51,845 nucleotides of DNA, taken from Thermotogae bacterium (GTDB lineage Bacteria > Thermotogota > Thermotogae > Petrotogales > Petrotogaceae). The notes under the pieces were generated by a model, which searched no databases, had not been told where the DNA came from, and saw only the letters and a list, made by a program, of their open reading frames with translations. Below are positions 13,261 through 51,258 of the stretch, one piece after another. The position numbers and the translations under genes were made by a program. Location: the NCBI GenBank assembly GCA_022704305.1, contig JAKJGQ010000005.1, forward strand, positions 1-51,845, written 5' to 3'. Each line of letters starts with the position of its first letter. Position 1 is the stretch's first letter.

Positions 13261-14478
13261 TTACCCGTTGATTTTCTGACAGGTACGCCATCCGAAGATA
13301 ATTCTCAGCACCTCATAAAACGGTATATCTATTATAAAATCAAACTCCTTGTTATAGTTCTGTTTAAGACCGGCAAGCGTATTTCTCAATTCAGTACAGT
13401 AGTCTGGACCTTTGAGAAGTATGCTGTAACTATCCTTTGGCAAATAAAAAGTTCCCGTTTTAAGACCTTTTTGTGCGATGCTGTCTGCGGTAAGGAATAT
13501 CCGCAGATTTCCAAATGTATCTACTATCTTTTGAAATGCAGAATTTGCATTTTGCTCAAACTTCATGTTGAAAAACTTTATGAAATCATAATCAAGCCTC
13601 TCATTTTCAGGTATAAATATGCCGTTCTCCTCTTGGTTCATAGCTAGAAGTCTCTTTTGATATCGGCAGTACATAGGTGTTTCTTCTGGTTTTTTGTTTA
13701 CAAGGTAAGTAAGGCATTTGGCACAGCCGGTTTCTTCTTTTTCGTATTTTTTACCTATAGTGAGTTTTTTGTCGTAGTCTTCTGTAAAAACAGATGTATG
13801 GAACTGCAGGAGACTGACGATTCCCTTGGCTCTGTTTTCAAGAAAGCTTTTTGAAAGATATGAAGAAGCCTCTGTTATCTTTTTATAGTAAAGAGATATT
13901 GCCATATCCAAAAAGGCATAGCCTAAATATTTATTTGCTGCCGAAAGTGATTTTATGGCAGCATCATATTTGCTTGAGAATGTAAAAAACATGGATATAA
14001 GAAGGTACGGATAACCGCTTTGAGGGTACTTATTCATGAGAGACTTTGAGTAGTCAAGAACATCTTGGTCTTTCCTGAAAATTTTGAGTACACCATAATT
14101 AAAAAGTGATTCGCATGATTGATTGATAAGGAAAAATTTTTCTGCTTTCATGAAATCATTTCTTAACAGGTGCATAAGACCGTACTGGTTCGAGAAAACG
14201 TTGGGTGTTTTTGAACTTAGTCTGTTTTCAAGGAAAACAGCAACTTTCTCATCGGTTTCGCTAATGTCGCTCATAATAATATCAAACCATGTTTTTAGGG
14301 ATTCTATGTTGACATTTATTGTTTCCAGATCTGATGAAGGTTTGTATATGGTGTTCTGTTTCTGTTCTTTTTTCTGCACACTAATGCCTTTTTTCTCAAG
14401 ATCCTTTTCTACAGTTTCTCTTAGTTTAAGAATATTTTTGAGCTTTTTGCTCTCTTCTTCGTTTGGAATATTAAACAT
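13261..14478 (-). CDS. Unknown cytoplasmic protein with TPR-like helical middle
   Basis: 405 residues, no signal peptide or membrane helix. I do not recognise the family. Residues about 95-230 look like irregular helical hairpins of TPR type (for example KAEKFFLINQSCESLFNYG, DAAIKSLSAANKYLG). A CAKC...C set of cysteines lies near residue 245. The tail (about 330-405) contains a hydrophobic, more globular part. It overlaps radC by 8 bases and is the last gene of the operon that starts at amrA. A protein of similar length and look is encoded at 43566-44798. Confidence 0.7.
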   Translation of the reverse strand: MFNIPNEEESKKLKNILKLRETVEKDLEKKGISVQKKEQKQNTIYKPSSDLETINVNIESLKTWFDIIMSDISETDEKVAVFLENRLSSKTPNVFSNQYGLMHLLRNDFMKAEKFFLINQSCESLFNYGVLKIFRKDQDVLDYSKSLMNKYPQSGYPYLLISMFFTFSSKYDAAIKSLSAANKYLGYAFLDMAISLYYKKITEASSYLSKSFLENRAKGIVSLLQFHTSVFTEDYDKKLTIGKKYEKEETGCAKCLTYLVNKKPEETPMYCRYQKRLLAMNQEENGIFIPENERLDYDFIKFFNMKFEQNANSAFQKIVDTFGNLRIFLTADSIAQKGLKTGTFYLPKDSYSILLKGPDYCTELRNTLAGLKQNYNKEFDFIIDIPFYEVLRIIFGWRTCQKING

Positions 14479-15148
14479 TCATCTCCACCATCCTTGATAA
14501 AGAAAAACTATAATAACTGCTTTTTCCCATAATAAGATGATCATTCATCCTTATATTCAGCAATTCTCCGCCTTGTTTTATCTTTTCTGTAAGATCTCTG
14601 TCGTCCATACTTGGTGTAGGATCTCCGGAAGGGTGATTATGAACGAGGATTATAGATACGGCATTTGATCTGATGGCGTATCTGAATATATCACGCGGAT
14701 GAGCGAGAGAATGGTTTACTGTTCCCATGCTGATATCCTCGTATCCTAAGACTTTCAGTTTTGAATCAAGACATATTACCCTTACCACTTCTTTGTCGTA
14801 ATGGATCATCTCTTCCGAAAAGGTGTATACACTGTCGGGAGAGTCCATTTTGTAATGTGTGTCTGCTTTCTTTTTTTGAAGATGATATCTTTTTCCTATT
14901 TCCAGAGATGCTTTAAGGTTTATGGCCCTTACCCTGCCTATACCCTGTACAGATGCGATATCGCTTATGCCGGCATCCGCAAGAGTAATAAGATCTTTGT
15001 ATCTTTCCATAAGATCTCTTGAAGCTTTGAAAACAGATGCGTTTTTGGTTCCGCTCCTAAGAATCACTGCAATGAGCTCTTCATCTGAAAGAGCTTGTAC
15101 ACCCTGTGTTTCAAGTTTTTCTCTTGGAAGTTGGTGTTCGTCATTCAT
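14471..15148 (-). CDS. radC: RadC family JAB/MPN domain protein
   Basis: 225 residues, the full RadC layout: N-terminal helix-hairpin-helix (ISDIASVQGIGRVRAINLKA), then a JAMM metalloprotease-like domain with VHNHPSGDPTPSMDD, giving metal ligands H170, H172 and an aspartate near 183. It is often called a DNA repair protein, but a repair role is not well supported and the activity is unknown. It overlaps maf by 8 bases, an old pairing in many bacteria. Confidence 0.93.
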   Translation of the reverse strand: MNDEHQLPREKLETQGVQALSDEELIAVILRSGTKNASVFKASRDLMERYKDLITLADAGISDIASVQGIGRVRAINLKASLEIGKRYHLQKKKADTHYKMDSPDSVYTFSEEMIHYDKEVVRVICLDSKLKVLGYEDISMGTVNHSLAHPRDIFRYAIRSNAVSIILVHNHPSGDPTPSMDDRDLTEKIKQGGELLNIRMNDHLIMGKSSYYSFSLSRMVEMNV

Positions 15149-15716
15149 ACTTTATTATCCCCCGCTCCAGCAGTTTTTTGTAGACTGATGTAACCGGAAA
15201 CCCCATAACGTTATAATAATCGCCCTTTATACCTTGGATAAAAACAAGCCCGAAGTCCTGTATGCCATAAGCACCGGCTTTATCGTAAGGAGAAAAAGCA
15301 TCTATATAATAGTATATTTCATTGTCACTAAGCTCTCTGAAAAAAACCTCTGTACATTCGTAAAAAACATCAGTAAATAGATTAGTTCTCAGACAGACTC
15401 CTGTGTAGACCTTGTGAGCAGCTCCTGAAAGTTTTTTCAGCATTTGAAATGCGTGTTCACGATTTCGTGGTTTTCCCAGAAATTTATCTTCTATAAACAC
15501 AATGGTATCTGCAGTGATAAGTAGTTCATCATTCTCTATCTTTAAAGCCTTACTCTTATTAAGAGCTACTTCTTGAACGTAAAGTTCAGGAAGGCTTTGG
15601 GAACACTCTTCATCTATATCGCTTACAGTTATTCTGAAATCATTTGAAATAAACTTAAGAAGTTCCTTTCGCCTGGCTGATCCTGAACCCAGCACTAATC
15701 TATACTTTAGCGTCAT
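15141..15716 (-). CDS. maf: Maf-family nucleotide pyrophosphatase
   Basis: 191 residues. Maf proteins hydrolyse non-canonical or methylated nucleoside triphosphates to monophosphates and can arrest septation. Family blocks: LVLGSGSARRKELLKF at the start, LITADTIVFIEDKFLGKPRN with the catalytic aspartate, and YDKAGAYGIQDFG. Start ATG 15716 overlaps the Gx gene by 17 bases, which indicates translational coupling. Confidence 0.94.
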   Translation of the reverse strand: MTLKYRLVLGSGSARRKELLKFISNDFRITVSDIDEECSQSLPELYVQEVALNKSKALKIENDELLITADTIVFIEDKFLGKPRNREHAFQMLKKLSGAAHKVYTGVCLRTNLFTDVFYECTEVFFRELSDNEIYYYIDAFSPYDKAGAYGIQDFGLVFIQGIKGDYYNVMGFPVTSVYKKLLERGIIKYE

Positions 15717-16215
15717 GGTTCATACTCCTTAAAAAAATATTAGAAACTACTGCAAGTAAGTATGCGGTTACAGTACCTATTAAAACAAGATACGGATAGT
15801 AGTAGAATACGGCTTTACTGTTGCCTAGAATAAGCCCGGCGATAAGTATCTGCACTGTATTGTTTAAAAGAGCACCCAGCTCACTTATTCCTATGGTTCC
15901 AACTTTAGGAACATGCTTTTTAAGCCATCCCATAAAAAGAGCACTCGCAATTGATCCGGACAATCCCATAAAGAATGTTGCCGAAGCTATTCTCCCAGAC
16001 AAAAGGCCTCCGATAAAGCTTTTTCCGAAGGCAATCATTGCACAGGATAAAACCCCATAATCCAGTACGGCAGCCAAAAGAACAGGAAGATTTGAAAATC
16101 CCCATCTTACTCCGGGAAGCGGCATGGGAAGTGGAATAAAACTTTCCACAACATACATGGCACAAGCAATACCTGTAAGAATACTTATATTTGAAAGTTT
16201 TTTCGATTTTACCAT
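15700..16215 (-). CDS. Gx transporter family / heptaprenyl-diphosphate synthase component I-like membrane protein (EetB-like)
   Basis: 171 residues with about five hydrophobic helices. Motifs of the family (PF07456-type): ACAMYVVESFIPLPMPLPGV, GFSNLPVLLAAVLDYG, FGKSFIGGLLSGR, and SELGALLNNTVQILIA. The name 'heptaprenyl diphosphate synthase component I' is historical. In the Listeria flavin-based electron transfer locus the EetB protein is, to my recollection, of this family. Here it lies directly after a NusG_II protein and ApbE, the same set, overlapping the NusG_II gene by 7 bases. Confidence 0.85.
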   Translation of the reverse strand: MVKSKKLSNISILTGIACAMYVVESFIPLPMPLPGVRWGFSNLPVLLAAVLDYGVLSCAMIAFGKSFIGGLLSGRIASATFFMGLSGSIASALFMGWLKKHVPKVGTIGISELGALLNNTVQILIAGLILGNSKAVFYYYPYLVLIGTVTAYLLAVVSNIFLRSMNHDAKV

Positions 16216-16586
16216 GTTATAATATCTACTCCATCTGTGTTTTTTCCGCCTATAGGTTCAACTACTATCTTATACGGAAGGCAAACGATAGTTTGATTTG
16301 TATTGCTTATCCATCCTGTTTTGACACATATCTGGTTATCGCAGGTGGATTCCTTTACCCTTGCCTTTCCCTGGTAAAACTCAACTGTAAGAAGGTGTTT
16401 CCCGTCTTTTTCTACAGGATAAAGTCCATCTTGAGATATTGAAACAGCCAGTACACCATCAATAGTGACTTTTACTCCAATTATTCCTTTTTGTGGTATT
16501 AATAAATTTAAAAAAATCATAATTACGGCAAAAAGCAAAATAGCTGCTACTATAAATATATCGTACTTTTTTGTTCTTTTCGCCAT
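16209..16586 (-). CDS. Membrane-anchored NusG domain II protein (EetA-like)
   Basis: 125 residues: one N-terminal membrane helix (about 10-30) and then an extracytoplasmic NusG_II domain, with DGVLAVSISQDGLYPVE and NQICVKTGWISNTNQTIVCL followed by PYKIVVEP. This small domain has no link to transcription; it occurs beside ApbE and Gx proteins, and EetA of the Listeria electron transfer locus is of this kind as I recall. No FMN-attachment motif of the (S/T)GA(S/T) type is visible. Two bases separate it from apbE. Confidence 0.85.
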   Translation of the reverse strand: MAKRTKKYDIFIVAAILLFAVIMIFLNLLIPQKGIIGVKVTIDGVLAVSISQDGLYPVEKDGKHLLTVEFYQGKARVKESTCDNQICVKTGWISNTNQTIVCLPYKIVVEPIGGKNTDGVDIITW

Positions 16587-16588
16587 AA

Positions 16589-17635
16589 CTACTTCACTTT
16601 ATTTCTGAAGTACTCAAAACCGCTGGATTCAACAGTTTTTCCGGTATTATCGATAAGATATGCTTGTACACCAAACTTGGTAAAGTACTCCAGTGCTGGA
16701 TTATCTATGCCTAGTACAAAAAGTCCGGTAGCATAGGCGTCTGCTGTCATAACCTTATCTGAAATAACCGTGCAGCTTCTGCAGTTATTTGCAGGATAGC
16801 CTGTTTTTGGGTCTATTATATGGTGATACAACGTACCGTTTTGTATGAAATATCTCTCGTAGTTTCCGGAAGTAGCAACTGCCCCACTATATATGTAAAG
16901 CGTATCAATAAGCTTTGCCGGGTCAGAGGAAAAAGGATCTCTTATGCCTATCTGCCATGGTCTGTTACCGAATTTAGGTCCTATTATTCCTATATCTCCT
17001 CCGGCATCTATAAAGCCTGTGGCTTTAGGATCAATCTCTTTTATGCGGTCTATAACCCTGTCGACAATAAAACCTTTGGAGATACCGCCAAGATCAACCG
17101 TCACACCTTCCTTGAGTAGCTTTATTTTTCTGTTTTTGCTGTCAATATCTATAAACTTGTAACTGACAAACGGGAGAACCTGTTCTATCTCATAGGAGGA
17201 TGGAACTCTTTTACTGGAGTTTACATCATCAAAGCCCCATAACATCAGAACTGGTCTTAGAGTAGGATCAAAAGAATCACCCGTGATTTTGGATACATTT
17301 ACCGCAGCCTGAAAAAGGAAAAGACTTTCTTCGTCGCATTCTATCTCCCTTTTTTCATTCAACTGGTATACTACACTTGAAGGTATATTTGAACTGTATT
17401 TGGCATAAAGTCTTTCGATTTCTTTTTCAGCAATTTTCAAAAGGCTTTTGGAAGATACTTTTCCTCCGGCTATATAGATTCTTACGTAGGTGCCCAAGGA
17501 AAATATTTCTGACTTTTCATAAGTGGGAAGTGGTTTTGAAAAAATTATGAATAATAAAAGGATTAAACTTATTCCCAGCATTGAAAAAATTAAAACAGTA
17601 CTTTTGCTTATACTACTAAAATCTTTCGCCCGCAC
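16589..17635 (-). CDS. apbE: FAD:protein FMN transferase (ApbE family)
   Basis: About 348 residues. It links FMN covalently to a Thr/Ser of extracytoplasmic redox proteins, using FAD and Mg2+. N-terminal membrane anchor about residues 15-35, so the enzyme faces outward. Motifs: DPTLRPVLMLWGFDD, VDLGGISKGFIVDRVID, GFIDAGGDIGIIG, HHIIDPKTGYPANN, and MTADAYATGLFVLG. Start: GTG 17635 is favoured because GGAGG lies nine bases before it; ATG 17644 is only one base from that site. The gene overlaps the end of amrS. No FMN-binding target protein is encoded in the window. Confidence 0.92.
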   Translation of the reverse strand: MRAKDFSSISKSTVLIFSMLGISLILLLFIIFSKPLPTYEKSEIFSLGTYVRIYIAGGKVSSKSLLKIAEKEIERLYAKYSSNIPSSVVYQLNEKREIECDEESLFLFQAAVNVSKITGDSFDPTLRPVLMLWGFDDVNSSKRVPSSYEIEQVLPFVSYKFIDIDSKNRKIKLLKEGVTVDLGGISKGFIVDRVIDRIKEIDPKATGFIDAGGDIGIIGPKFGNRPWQIGIRDPFSSDPAKLIDTLYIYSGAVATSGNYERYFIQNGTLYHHIIDPKTGYPANNCRSCTVISDKVMTADAYATGLFVLGIDNPALEYFTKFGVQAYLIDNTGKTVESSGFEYFRNKVK

Positions 17636-18606
17636 TTTTTGCATCCTCCGTATTCATCTGCATTGTACACTTTTACATCGTAGCCTTTCCTTTTTACTAT
17701 AAGTGTCTTACAGTCAGGACAGTATGTATCGCTGTACTCCCAGAAAGGTGTATTGCCTATATAGACATAATCCAGATACTCTTTAGCAGTTTGGTATACC
17801 TTTACCAAAAAATTGTAACTTTTTGGTTCAGCCTCATATTTATATCTCGGGAAGTACTGACTGATGTGCAGGGGGATATCCTTGGAAAGAGACGATAACC
17901 ATCTGAATTCCTCGGAAAGCTCGGATATATCATCGTTAAGTCCCGGAACTATAAGAGTAGTTATCTCTGTATGAACATTCATTTTGACAGAAAGCTCAAT
18001 AAAATCTAAGACTTCCTTAAGGCCGCCCTGCAAAATATTACGGTATTTCTGACTATTGAAAACCTTTAAATCTATATTTAAAGCGTCAAGATAATTTAAA
18101 AGCAGCTTTGCGGGTTCTTTATTTATATAACCGTTGGTCACCATGACGGTATAGAACCGTTCCTTTGCTTTTTTCAATTCACGGCAGCAGTCAAGAACAT
18201 ACTCATACCATACTATGGGTTCCGAATAAGTAAAGGCAACGGATCTTACACCGGTTTTCAAGATAAGCTCCCCAAGCATTTCTGGGTATATGTACTTGCC
18301 CTCGTTGCGGCAGTACTGGGATATTTCAAAGTTCTGACAGAAAGGACACTTTAAATTGCAGCCCCAGCTTCCCAGAGAAAGTATTTTACTTGTCGGGAAA
18401 AAATGATAAAGCGGTTTTTTTTCGATAGGATCTACTGCAACAGAAGATACGTTCGCATAACTTTGTGCGATAAGCTCTCCGGAAATATTTTTTCTTACGA
18501 GGCAAAAACCGGTCTGGTTTTCTGCAATTAAGCAGTTATGGGGACAAAGACTGCATTTAATACCCAAATCTTTTGTTTCAGTATAGTTAAGTGCAGAAAC
18601 CTTCAT
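17608..18606 (-). CDS. amrS: AmmeMemoRadiSam system radical SAM enzyme
   Basis: 332 residues. Radical-SAM motif CNLKCPFCQNFEIS; an N-terminal cysteine cluster CSLCPHNC...C; and a C-terminal zinc-ribbon-like pair (YCPDC and GCKKCG). This matches the AmrS family, related to pyruvate formate-lyase activases. It occurs with AMMECR1 and Memo proteins; the joint reaction is not established. Start ATG 18606 lies one base after the amrA stop. No Memo (AmrB) gene is in the window. Confidence 0.92.
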   Translation of the reverse strand: MKVSALNYTETKDLGIKCSLCPHNCLIAENQTGFCLVRKNISGELIAQSYANVSSVAVDPIEKKPLYHFFPTSKILSLGSWGCNLKCPFCQNFEISQYCRNEGKYIYPEMLGELILKTGVRSVAFTYSEPIVWYEYVLDCCRELKKAKERFYTVMVTNGYINKEPAKLLLNYLDALNIDLKVFNSQKYRNILQGGLKEVLDFIELSVKMNVHTEITTLIVPGLNDDISELSEEFRWLSSLSKDIPLHISQYFPRYKYEAEPKSYNFLVKVYQTAKEYLDYVYIGNTPFWEYSDTYCPDCKTLIVKRKGYDVKVYNADEYGGCKKCGRKILVV

Positions 18607-18607
18607 C

Positions 18608-19129
18608 TCATAGATACCTCTGGACAGTAAAACGGTATAACTCTATTTTTTCATTTCCGATAATTCCGGCTTTGAGCTTTGCAATCCTCAGCTGCTGTTC
18701 AACGGTATCAACACCTTCAAGATCCGGCAGAAGCACTCCTTTTTTCCATCCGCTTTTAACTATAACACCATATATTTTTGGATTAAGTGAGGATGCGGAA
18801 TCGATTTTTTCTAGGCAGGAAAGAATATCTACATTGACCTTTATACTGTCCAGCTCGTTTTTTGACAAAGGCGGAAACCTAGGATCCTTTGTGGCGGCTG
18901 ATATAGCATTTTCGAGTATTTCTTCGCAAAGACTCTTGTATACCGGTTCTATGGTTCCTATACATCCTCTTAGTTCGCCGCTTATGGTATGCAGTGAAAC
19001 AAAGCAAGCGGCAGTTCTTACGAACAGGTCTTCCGGAAGATCAGACGAAGGCTGTGCTTTCATTTCTGACAGCACATAAGTTTCAATAGCTTTTATTGCC
19101 CATTTTACATAAGGATGCTCTCCTATCAT
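18608..19129 (-). CDS. amrA: AmmeMemoRadiSam system protein A (AMMECR1 domain)
   Basis: 173 residues, a stand-alone AMMECR1 domain with the invariant GELRGCIGTIEP motif, then ISAATKDPRFPPLSKNEL and VKSGWKKGVLLPDL. In some bacteria it is fused behind Memo; here it is free. First gene of the minus-strand operon running to 13261 and divergent from cheX. Its function is unknown in all organisms; association with a radical-SAM enzyme suggests a modification pathway. Confidence 0.92.
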   Translation of the reverse strand: MIGEHPYVKWAIKAIETYVLSEMKAQPSSDLPEDLFVRTAACFVSLHTISGELRGCIGTIEPVYKSLCEEILENAISAATKDPRFPPLSKNELDSIKVNVDILSCLEKIDSASSLNPKIYGVIVKSGWKKGVLLPDLEGVDTVEQQLRIAKLKAGIIGNEKIELYRFTVQRYL

Positions 19130-35477: not shown

Positions 35478-36197
35478 TTAAAGAGCTTTACGTTTTCGTA
35501 AGCCTATTACTATAATAAAAGCGATTATCATTCCTCCGACAAACTGCAGTATGTTCATAGGAAGAGCAAATATTGGAATAAGCCAATTGCCGAACATAAT
35601 TCTTTCCGCAAAGTAATAACCTGCAACCATCCACATGCCTGCCACAGTCATTCCCAGAAGATGTGAAAATGTAACCATAGTACTGTCTTTTCTACGCAGG
35701 AAAAGCCAGAGCAAAAGCACACATACGGGTATTAAACTAATTCCGATGAGTATACCAGTACTTACTCCACCGGCGGTTGTCTGTAACTCTTGGACGGTAG
35801 ACAGTTCAAGCTGGCCTGCAAGCTTCTGAGCACTTGTGCTGTCAGCCAGAACTGAGTTTAGTACAGCATTGAGAGTAATTCCAAAAATAACCCACGCTCC
35901 CATGCTTAACAAAGATATTATTCCTTTGGCTGTTTTTTTCTTCTTGTACTCTGCAGCAACAAGAGCAACAATAATTCCCATCACCGATTTTATAATAAGT
36001 GTCGGAACTGCCCATCCGGCGTAGCCTCCAACAATATCGGCGAGCATTGAACCCACTCCCCCTGCAAGAGCTCCTACTTTCCAGCCGAAAAGTATAGAAG
36101 CAACAAATATCATAGAGTCTCCCATGTGAATATAGCCCTGCGTAAAAGGAACAGGCACTTTAATGGAAAAAGTGGTCACAAAAACCAGAGCTACCAT
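35478..36197 (-). CDS. ECF transporter S component, riboflavin-type family
   Basis: At least 239 residues with about six membrane helices. YIHMGDSMIFVASILFGW and GALAGGVGSMLADIVGGYAG are hallmarks of the PF07155-type S components, several of which bind riboflavin or other vitamins; the ligand here is not certain. ATG 36197 is the first standard start, but conserved N-terminal family sequence (KTLVYSGL) continues in frame upstream of it and a ribosome site GGGGGG lies at 36245-36240. Translation therefore probably begins at a non-standard codon (ATT 36239, ATC 36233 or ATA 36224). The ECF ATPases and T subunit are elsewhere. Confidence 0.85.
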   Translation of the reverse strand: MVALVFVTTFSIKVPVPFTQGYIHMGDSMIFVASILFGWKVGALAGGVGSMLADIVGGYAGWAVPTLIIKSVMGIIVALVAAEYKKKKTAKGIISLLSMGAWVIFGITLNAVLNSVLADSTSAQKLAGQLELSTVQELQTTAGGVSTGILIGISLIPVCVLLLWLFLRRKDSTMVTFSHLLGMTVAGMWMVAGYYFAERIMFGNWLIPIFALPMNILQFVGGMIIAFIIVIGLRKRKAL

Positions 36198-42497: not shown

Positions 42498-42526
42498 TTG
42501 TTTTTTTGTTATAACTTTGTTATAAT
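42498..42526 (+). promoter_or_regulatory. Promoter of the b5-repeat protein gene
   Basis: TTGTTT (42498-42503), 17 bases, TATAAT (42521-42526). The site CGGGAGGTG and ATG 42558 follow. Confidence 0.7.
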
Positions 42527-42557
42527 TTTATTAACTTATCTATCGGGAGGTGTTAGA

Positions 42558-43424
42558 ATGAAGAAACATCTGATGATACTGTTCGTGGTCTTTATGACTA
42601 CTGTTGGTTTATCGGAAGCGCTTTCAGATTTGGATCTAAAAAACTATAACGGTGATACCGTTCTGATCTCCATGACGACATTGAAAAGTTCAACAGATCT
42701 TCTGGCGTACAATGGTATGGTATATAATATTTCTGCATATTCTGATCTTAAAAATATTTCAAAAGAAAAATTTTTCAGTGTAGGAACAGAGAGTCTGCGG
42801 ATACTGAAAAAAGATGCAGTTATCGAAAAAAAACTCGCATCCGTCAAAACTATAGGCTATCTGGCGGTCAGTGTAAAAGAACTTGAAACATTTAATGGAA
42901 AGTCATCATCAGTTCCGGCGTTTTTTGCATCAGACGGAAAAATTTATGATGTAACTGAAAACATAAAATGTAGGGGAGGAGTACATACAGTTGCTTATCA
43001 ACCCGGAAAAGATATCACTATTGACCTCAAGAAAAGCAAACACAGTAATAATGTAATTAAAGGACTGCTTCTTATAGGTATACTCACTTTTAACTTTGAA
43101 GATCTTTACGCCATGAATGGAAAAAATGGAAAGCCTTCTCTTGTCGGTGTGAATGGAAAAATCTATGATTTTTCAGAGCTTAAACGGTGGGCAGGCGGCG
43201 AGCATTTAAACGTTCATAGTGCGGGGCAGGAACTGACCTATCAGCTTAAATCAAAATCTCCTCACGGAGTTAAAAAGATTTCTTCTGCTTCTGTAATCGG
43301 ACTTTTGGCAACAGATATGAAAGGATTTAGTACTGTTATATCTACGAATAAAAATCTTAAGTATTCTACTAAAGAACAAAATATCTATGAAGAGAAAGAG
43401 ATTATAGGTTTTCTTACAAAATAG
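42558..43424 (+). CDS. Exported protein with tandem cytochrome b5-like repeats
   Basis: 288 residues from ATG 42558. Signal peptide about 1-21 (MKKHLMILFVVFMTTVGLSE). Three repeats of about 65-70 residues follow, each opening with LxxxNG and NGxVYN/DG KIYD and closing with an IGxL motif; a fourth partial one ends the protein. Repeat 3 (DLYAMNGKNGKPSLVGVNGK, IYDFSEL, GGEHLNVHSAGQELT, SPHG) matches small bacterial heme/steroid-binding b5-like domains and keeps both likely ligand histidines. Repeat 2 keeps only part of them (GVHTVAYQPG, SKHS) and repeat 1 has lost both. Probably an extracytoplasmic heme protein with one functional site. Confidence 0.78.
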   Translation: MKKHLMILFVVFMTTVGLSEALSDLDLKNYNGDTVLISMTTLKSSTDLLAYNGMVYNISAYSDLKNISKEKFFSVGTESLRILKKDAVIEKKLASVKTIGYLAVSVKELETFNGKSSSVPAFFASDGKIYDVTENIKCRGGVHTVAYQPGKDITIDLKKSKHSNNVIKGLLLIGILTFNFEDLYAMNGKNGKPSLVGVNGKIYDFSELKRWAGGEHLNVHSAGQELTYQLKSKSPHGVKKISSASVIGLLATDMKGFSTVISTNKNLKYSTKEQNIYEEKEIIGFLTK

Positions 43425-49899: not shown

Positions 49900-51258
49900 A
49901 TGAAAGCCGATGTTTTAATTGCAGAAATAGGCAGTACAACTACAGTTCTTACTGCTCTTACCGGGATTAACGGTAAAAACCCCAAGATTGAAGCTCAGGG
50001 AGAACATTATACCACGGTTTCCGAAGGCGATGTTACTATTGGTATACAGGGTGCGGTAAGAGATTTGGAGAAGAAAATAAACGAAAAAGTCGATTGGGAA
50101 ATACTTTTAGCAAGTTCTTCAGCCGCGGGCGGTCTTAAAATGACCGTCCACGGTCTTGTTTATGATATGACCGTGAGAGCTGCCAAAGAGGCTGCTCTTG
50201 GAGCAGGTGCAGTTCTTAAGTTTGCAACAGCAGGAATGATGAGACATTCTCAAGTAAATGAAATTTACAGAATAAACCCCAAAGTGATGCTTCTGGCCGG
50301 GGGAGTTGATTATGGTGAAGAATCAACCATAATTCATAATGCTGAAATTATAGCCAGCATGAGTATGAACTGTCCTGTAATATATGCAGGTAACTGTGTA
50401 TTGCGTGATGAAGCAGCACAAATATTCAAAGACAAAGGAAAAGAACTGATAATCACCGAAAACGTTTATCCACAGGTAGATCATCTTAATGTCGGACCTG
50501 CACGCAGATGTATTCAGGAAGTATTTTCCAAACATATAATACATGCGCCCGGAATGGAGAAAATATACTCTATTGTTAATGGACAGGTGCTTACAACACC
50601 GGGAGCGGTTATGATAACAACCGAACTGCTTTCGGAGATTTTCGGAGATGTTCTTACCGTAGATATAGGGGGAGCTACAACGGATGTTGATTCTGTTACA
50701 GATGGCGATCCTCAGATTCAGAGAATTCTTGTTTCTCCTGAGCCACGTTCAAAGAGATCTGTTGAAGGAGATCTTGGACTGTATGTCAATGCTCATAACG
50801 TTATAGAACTAATTACTCCTGAAAAACTTAGAATGGAGTTCAGTGATTATGATGAGCTATTTGCGCAGATATCACCTTATCCAAAAACTCCCAGGCAGGA
50901 AGAGTTTGTTGCTTCACTTGCAAAGTACTGTTTCAAAACGGCTGTAAGAAGGCATGCCGGGAAAAAAGGCTTCCTTTTTGGTCCTACCGGAAGAATAGAA
51001 ACAGCTCAGGGAAAGGATCTGACAGCGGTAAAGCATATCTTTGGTACCGGAGGAATGCTTTCAAGATCAAGATATCGAAAAGAAGTTATGAAGAGTATCT
51101 TTGAATCTTCCAGCAAAGATGAACTGCTTCCTGTTGAAAACAAAACATCTTTGTATTATGATAAAGATTATATTTTTGCTCCTATAGGAATACTATCAAC
51201 TATAGATAAGCAAAGTGCTATTGAACTATTAAAAAAAGATATCGCCAAAATAGAATAA
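49900..51258 (+). CDS. glmL: GlmL/MutL-family protein (glutamate mutase accessory, ASKHA fold)
   Basis: 452 residues. N-terminal phosphate loop DVLIAEIGSTTTVLTAL and second loop VLTVDIGGATTDVDSVTDG are those of an actin-like ATPase; SSSAAGGLKMTVHGLVYDMT and RHAGKKGFLFGPTGRIETAQ are typical of MutL. GlmL is thought to reactivate the B12-dependent glutamate mutase or related aminomutases. No mutase subunit is visible in the window; the partner may lie elsewhere. Coupled to the aminotransferase gene. Confidence 0.9.
   Translation: MKADVLIAEIGSTTTVLTALTGINGKNPKIEAQGEHYTTVSEGDVTIGIQGAVRDLEKKINEKVDWEILLASSSAAGGLKMTVHGLVYDMTVRAAKEAALGAGAVLKFATAGMMRHSQVNEIYRINPKVMLLAGGVDYGEESTIIHNAEIIASMSMNCPVIYAGNCVLRDEAAQIFKDKGKELIITENVYPQVDHLNVGPARRCIQEVFSKHIIHAPGMEKIYSIVNGQVLTTPGAVMITTELLSEIFGDVLTVDIGGATTDVDSVTDGDPQIQRILVSPEPRSKRSVEGDLGLYVNAHNVIELITPEKLRMEFSDYDELFAQISPYPKTPRQEEFVASLAKYCFKTAVRRHAGKKGFLFGPTGRIETAQGKDLTAVKHIFGTGGMLSRSRYRKEVMKSIFESSSKDELLPVENKTSLYYDKDYIFAPIGILSTIDKQSAIELLKKDIAKIE

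Follow-up and report, generated by a model that had tools for sequence, protein, structure and literature searches.

A conserved ApbE, EetA-like and EetB-like gene trio in Thermotogota as a probable flavin-supply and flavinylation module

Introduction

Three adjacent genes in a Petrotogaceae MAG encode an FAD:protein FMN transferase (ApbE), a NusG_II protein and a PF07456 membrane protein, and a sequence-only reading had taken them for a minimal flavin-based extracellular electron transfer (EET) module. Do these genes form an electron-transfer chain of their own, or do they equip other proteins with flavin? The window, a stretch of 51,845 nucleotides, is contig C200 of the MAG (2.04 Mb in 244 contigs, 80% complete). 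The trio is best read as a flavin-supply and flavinylation module for outward-facing flavoproteins, with subunits of Rnf and Nqr-like complexes as the targets, a reading to which we give a probability of roughly 0.85. It is very probably a known kind of maturation module and not a chain in its own right.

The gene run

All genes of the run lie on the minus strand. The apbE gene (16589..17644) encodes a protein of 351 aa (PF02424, 3.4e-71), the eetA-like gene (16209..16586) a NusG_II, or DUF1312, protein of 125 aa (PF07009, 2.5e-21), and the eetB-like gene (15700..16215) a membrane protein of 171 aa (PF07456, Hpre_diP_synt_I, 1.8e-32). All three Pfam scores are well over the curated cut-offs. 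The coordinates and Pfam matches bear out the sequence-only reading in its description of three adjacent genes, the first pair separated by 2 bp and EetA and EetB overlapping by 7 bp; its family calls, and the kinship that it saw with fmnB, eetA and eetB of Listeria, are correct in kind by profile match. The boundaries that it drew, 15700-17635, were too narrow, leaving out the overlapping amrS upstream and maf downstream.

The trio occupies the centre of a longer run, which spans positions 19129 down to 14471 and counts at least seven genes, in the order AmrA-AmrS-ApbE-EetA-EetB-Maf-RadC. The first gene, amrA (18608..19129), encodes an AMMECR1 protein (PF01871, 1e-46; TIGR04335, 2.1e-41) and lies 1 bp from amrS (17608..18606), the gene for the AmmeMemoRadiSam radical-SAM enzyme (TIGR04337, 8e-87, 291 bits against a cut-off of 220), which in turn overlaps apbE by 37 bp. 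At the other end, eetB overlaps by 17 bp with maf (15141..15716), which encodes a nucleotide pyrophosphatase (PF02545, 4.3e-56) and is followed by radC (14471..15148; PF04002, 5.3e-42). Both downstream genes keep their positions in relatives and are treated here as context, a role for Maf in the module being doubtful. The gene overlaps suggest that the run may be read as one transcript; promoter-like sites in the region are uninformative, given that they are not commoner than in shuffled sequence.

Two genes elsewhere in the window are noted in passing. The gene at 42498-43424 on the plus strand is predicted to encode a secreted protein, which has a cytochrome b5-like heme/steroid-binding domain (PF00173, 8e-14), and a MutL gene (PF13941, 1.9e-156) lies at 49900-51258 on the same strand; the MutL family is linked to amino-acid mutases.

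The three proteins

The ApbE family splits FAD, and the FMN is then attached to a threonine or serine in a motif of the type [S/T]GA[S/T]. In an alignment of the window's ApbE with 16 relatives, the motifs DLGGISKG, TSGNYERYF, HHIIDPKTGYP and TADAYAT are conserved and residues D302, T306, H274 and H275 are invariant. A hydrophobic segment at about residues 28-47 follows a basic stretch and, read from the sequence, has no lipobox; this segment would serve as export signal and anchor, such that ApbE is predicted to be held in the membrane by its N-terminus with the catalytic domain outside. The nearest solved structure is that of TM1553 from T. maritima (1vrm; E 1.8e-130 with a profile of ApbE relatives), an orthologous ApbE from the same phylum, and the best named relatives are those of Pseudothermotoga and the Thermotogaceae. 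A second ApbE is found in G001 (contig C517), G033 and G051, in each case on a short contig without conserved neighbours. The G001 copy was not used as evidence for targets, given a contamination of 6% in that genome.

The match of EetB to PF07456 reaches 112.8 bits against a cut-off of 30. The AlphaFold2 model (pLDDT 87) is of a six-helix membrane protein, and eight of its eight best PDB folds by Foldseek are ECF S-components, led by RibU of T. maritima (TmRibU, 5kbw) with a TM score of 0.74, though with a Foldseek E value of merely 2.8e-3. A sequence profile of EetB also finds RibU (3p5n), weakly, at E 0.03. An NCBIfam scan of EetA and EetB returned no informative model. The apbE gene lies two genes upstream of eetB, an arrangement kept in relatives. 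EetB is thus predicted, from its modelled fold, to be the substrate-binding S-component for FAD export. That the window's EetB would export FAD is proposed by analogy, since no ECF T or A gene adjoins eetB; the MAG has one gene for an ECF T-component. The window also holds a second gene for an ECF S-component (35478-36197, minus strand; PF07155, ECF-ribofla_trS).

The AlphaFold2 model of EetA (pLDDT 83) has one N-terminal transmembrane helix (residues 7-28) and an outer beta domain, for which Foldseek finds the DUF1312 structures 4esn, 3ld7 and 4obi; Listeria EetA is, we take it, likewise a NusG_II protein. Residues C82, C87 and C102 are nearly invariant in the alignment of relatives, and all three are gone together in G005 and in the lineage of genus g25 (G052 and G057). 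The joint loss suggests that the cysteines may act as one functional unit, for example as a disulphide plus a partner or as a metal site. In G005, the cysteine-less NusG_II gene lies between znuA and a Fur regulator in a metal ABC uptake locus (L161:3013-6235), and ApbE and EetB, after its move to that ZnuA-Fur-ABC locus, are directly adjacent. In G057 (L167:6469-9431) and G052 (L168), ApbE is duplicated around EetB, in the order ApbE-EetB-ApbE-EetA. The notion that EetA and EetB are inseparable is weakened by the relocation in G005 and by three Bacillota loci with the order ApbE-EetB-Maf-RadC and without a detected EetA.

Conservation within and beyond Thermotogota

Among 61 related genomes from 26 genera and 10 families, ApbE is present in 60, NusG_II in 58 and PF07456 in 58, and the same three genomes are without both of the latter. 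The sequence-only reading had proposed to compare gene order in relatives, and the order AmrS-ApbE-EetA-EetB-Maf is indeed found in most loci examined. This near-constant presence, together with the order kept in most loci, argues that the trio is not a chance neighbourhood. The block is broken between ApbE and EetA in G056, where AmrS-ApbE lies at one site and EetA-EetB-Maf-RadC at another, and in G050 AmrS-ApbE is likewise separate from EetA and EetB.

Among 80 named loci, adjacent genes for ApbE, EetA and EetB also occur in records titled as Nitrospirae/Nitrospirota, Pseudomonadota, Deltaproteobacteria, several Bacillota groups and WOR-3. The trio lies beside Rnf in three of the 80 (L084, L086 and L126): ApbE-EetA-EetB adjoins Rnf in Hathewaya and Clostridium, and in a Halobacteroidaceae MAG Rnf is followed by EetA-ApbE-EetB. 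In these clostridial clusters, as in the window, the three proteins are encoded together, and colocalisation suggests that there they serve Rnf. The Thermotogota loci examined, in contrast, hold the module away from rnf, fixed between AmrA-AmrS upstream and Maf-RadC downstream.

A different locus was seen in the Petrotogaceae-like genome G006 (L163:3231-9853), where the gene for an Ndh2-like pyridine-nucleotide oxidoreductase stands in a row with those for a UbiA prenyltransferase, a polyprenyl synthase, a lipoprotein that carries an FMN_bind and an FAD_binding_2 domain, and a second NusG_II protein. It is plausibly a flavinylated extracellular reductase locus.

Flavinylation targets

FMN_bind and RnfD are each present in 58 of the 61 relatives; neither was detected in G052. 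Profile searches of the MAG contigs, an assembly that is 80% complete, found no FMN_bind, RnfD or RnfA/E gene. In G001, a genome from the same genus, an operon for NqrB, C, D, E and F-like proteins lies on contig C327, and contig C345 carries an RnfA-RnfB end. In the MAG, the match of contig C111 to G001 runs as far as the ferritin gene next to the nqr operon, where the contig stops at its last base, 80778, and contig C242 starts at a position 3.7 kb into C345 of G001, about 2.8 kb beyond the RnfB fragment. The gaps are best explained by the assembly, given that these contigs end or start beside the nqr and rnf positions of G001. The missing targets are therefore probably unassembled, and a true absence of Rnf and Nqr from the MAG was dropped as an explanation. 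The sequence-only reading had made its case depend on a flavinylation target in the genome; taken literally, the MAG is empty of one, but its contigs stop just beside the nqr and rnf positions, so that the empty result does not overturn the link to flavinylation.

Motifs of the expected type are found in relatives. G001 has DAVTGAS in NqrC and ITSATPL in the NqrB-like protein, and G012 has MTGAT in RnfG and ITGAT in NqrC. The Nqr-like operon, as seen in G001 (L155:4947-8790) and G012 (L158:5055-8904), consists of genes for NqrB, C, D, E and F-like proteins and is without NqrA; the matches for NqrF and NqrD are over the curated cut-off and those for B, C and E below it. Proteins with PF05896 matches were considered for the missing NqrA and rejected: the matches are weak, 14 of the 34 passing the cut-off, and the ones that were compared adjoin RnfD and fit RnfC. 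In a survey from 2014, Thermotogae were reported to lack an nqr operon (PMC4014512).

On the proposed mechanism, EetB, together with the ECF T and ATPase subunits that the cell shares among its transporters, would present cytosolic FAD on the outer face of the membrane, as suggested by Listeria genetics, family membership and the predicted fold. ApbE, anchored on the outside, would split the FAD and couple FMN to the threonine or serine of the target motif. Genes and motifs from the same genus and family point to RnfG/NqrC-type and RnfD/NqrB-type subunits of Rnf and the Nqr-like complex as its likely targets. EetA, a membrane-tethered beta domain with three cysteines, is taken to play an accessory part in export or in hand-over.

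Comparison with Listeria and other readings of the trio

The nearest known system is that of Listeria monocytogenes, where an ApbE-type transferase (FmnB), a NusG_II protein (EetA) and a PF07456 S-component (EetB) are also encoded together (PMC9973259). Listeria EetB binds FAD, resembles ECF S-components, as the predicted fold of the window's EetB does, and takes part in FAD export together with FmnA and EcfA/A' (PMC9973259). It is required for flavinylation of PplA, which exogenous FAD partially rescues when EetB is lacking, whereas EET activity stays normal when eetA is deleted (PMC9973259). Across genomes, eetB occurs with apbE in 2,169 and with Rnf in 572 from Clostridia (PMC9973259). The Thermotogota trio differs in that it has no neighbouring genes for an FmnA-type ECF T-component, Ndh2, PplA or dmk, and in that the likely targets are Rnf and Nqr subunits instead of PplA, in a host from the Thermotogota. 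The T. maritima Rnf is a known Na+ pump in the passages of PMC12174285 that cite Kuhns et al. 2020, and in those passages on T. maritima no role is reported for EetA or EetB.

Might the trio instead be a minimal EET module that, with partners encoded elsewhere, passes electrons to acceptors outside the cell? Its families are common to part of the Listeria EET locus, and G006 does have a separate locus with Ndh2-like, UbiA and FMN_bind genes and a second NusG_II. Against this, no member of the trio is by family an electron carrier, and no Ndh2, FMN_bind carrier, prenyltransferase or demethylmenaquinone gene was found among the scanned window genes. Moreover, the trio occurs in nearly all relatives, with or without extra FMN_bind proteins, and Listeria can do without eetA in EET and uses eetB to export FAD (PMC9973259), which together make the EET reading very improbable. 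The small envelope flavin redox system that had been proposed for the trio gives way on the same grounds, as the published genetics describe FAD supply and FMN attachment and no carrying of electrons (PMC9973259). It had also been remarked that genes for an NADH dehydrogenase, a flavinylated carrier and demethylmenaquinone are absent, and that partners might lie elsewhere. The absence is accounted for if the flavin acceptors, as in relatives, are RnfG/RnfD and NqrC/NqrB-like proteins encoded elsewhere. A further reading, in which the PF07456 protein is component I of heptaprenyl diphosphate synthase and the cluster serves quinone or isoprenoid synthesis, takes its support from the Pfam family name alone. 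It is hardly credible beside a predicted six-helix protein with an ECF S-component fold and a Listeria family member that binds FAD (PMC9973259). Flavin supply and flavinylation therefore remains the preferred reading.

AmrS and the AmmeMemoRadiSam link

The sole part of the locus that could be new is the link between AmrS and ApbE. AmrS adjoins the primary ApbE in 44 of 44 genomes from nine families, these being the window and the 43 relatives whose upstream flank could be read. The AmmeMemoRadiSam set is complete in the MAG, with AmrA and AmrS in the window and Memo on another contig (C199). In the WOR-3 genome L136, ApbE-AmrS-EetA-EetB form an overlapping run, apparently one instance in which AmrS has come to the module independently. 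A literature search found no function for AmrS.

AmrS and AmrA may help to finish the Rnf and Nqr-like complexes, perhaps through modification of ApbE, EetA or an Rnf/Nqr subunit, which would make the run a larger operon for maturation. The pairing of AmrS with ApbE holds even in genomes where EetA and EetB have moved away, and the overlapping WOR-3 run fits as well. The positions of Maf and RadC are nearly as fixed, however, such that an old gene order may merely persist; outside Thermotogota AmrS lies beside ApbE in one of 78 named loci; and Memo, the usual third partner, is present in 41 of the 41 relatives searched, yet outside the run. On balance, we regard the larger operon as unlikely. 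A narrower proposal is that AmrS itself works in extracytoplasmic flavinylation or in Rnf/Nqr maturation, modifying ApbE, EetA (perhaps at the three-cysteine site) or a flavinylated subunit. Such a part would explain its fixed place by apbE in Thermotogota and in the slot between apbE and eetA in the WOR-3 genome, and is offered as a long shot.

Implications

The result corrects an EET reading that annotation might otherwise copy. Two handles for further work follow: for the role of EetA, the loss of all three of its cysteines at once in two lineages, and for the AmmeMemoRadiSam system, a testable one in AmrS, a radical-SAM gene locked to apbE. The trio is a near-universal gene set of the sampled Thermotogota, most likely tied to Rnf and Nqr-like pumps and not to iron reduction.
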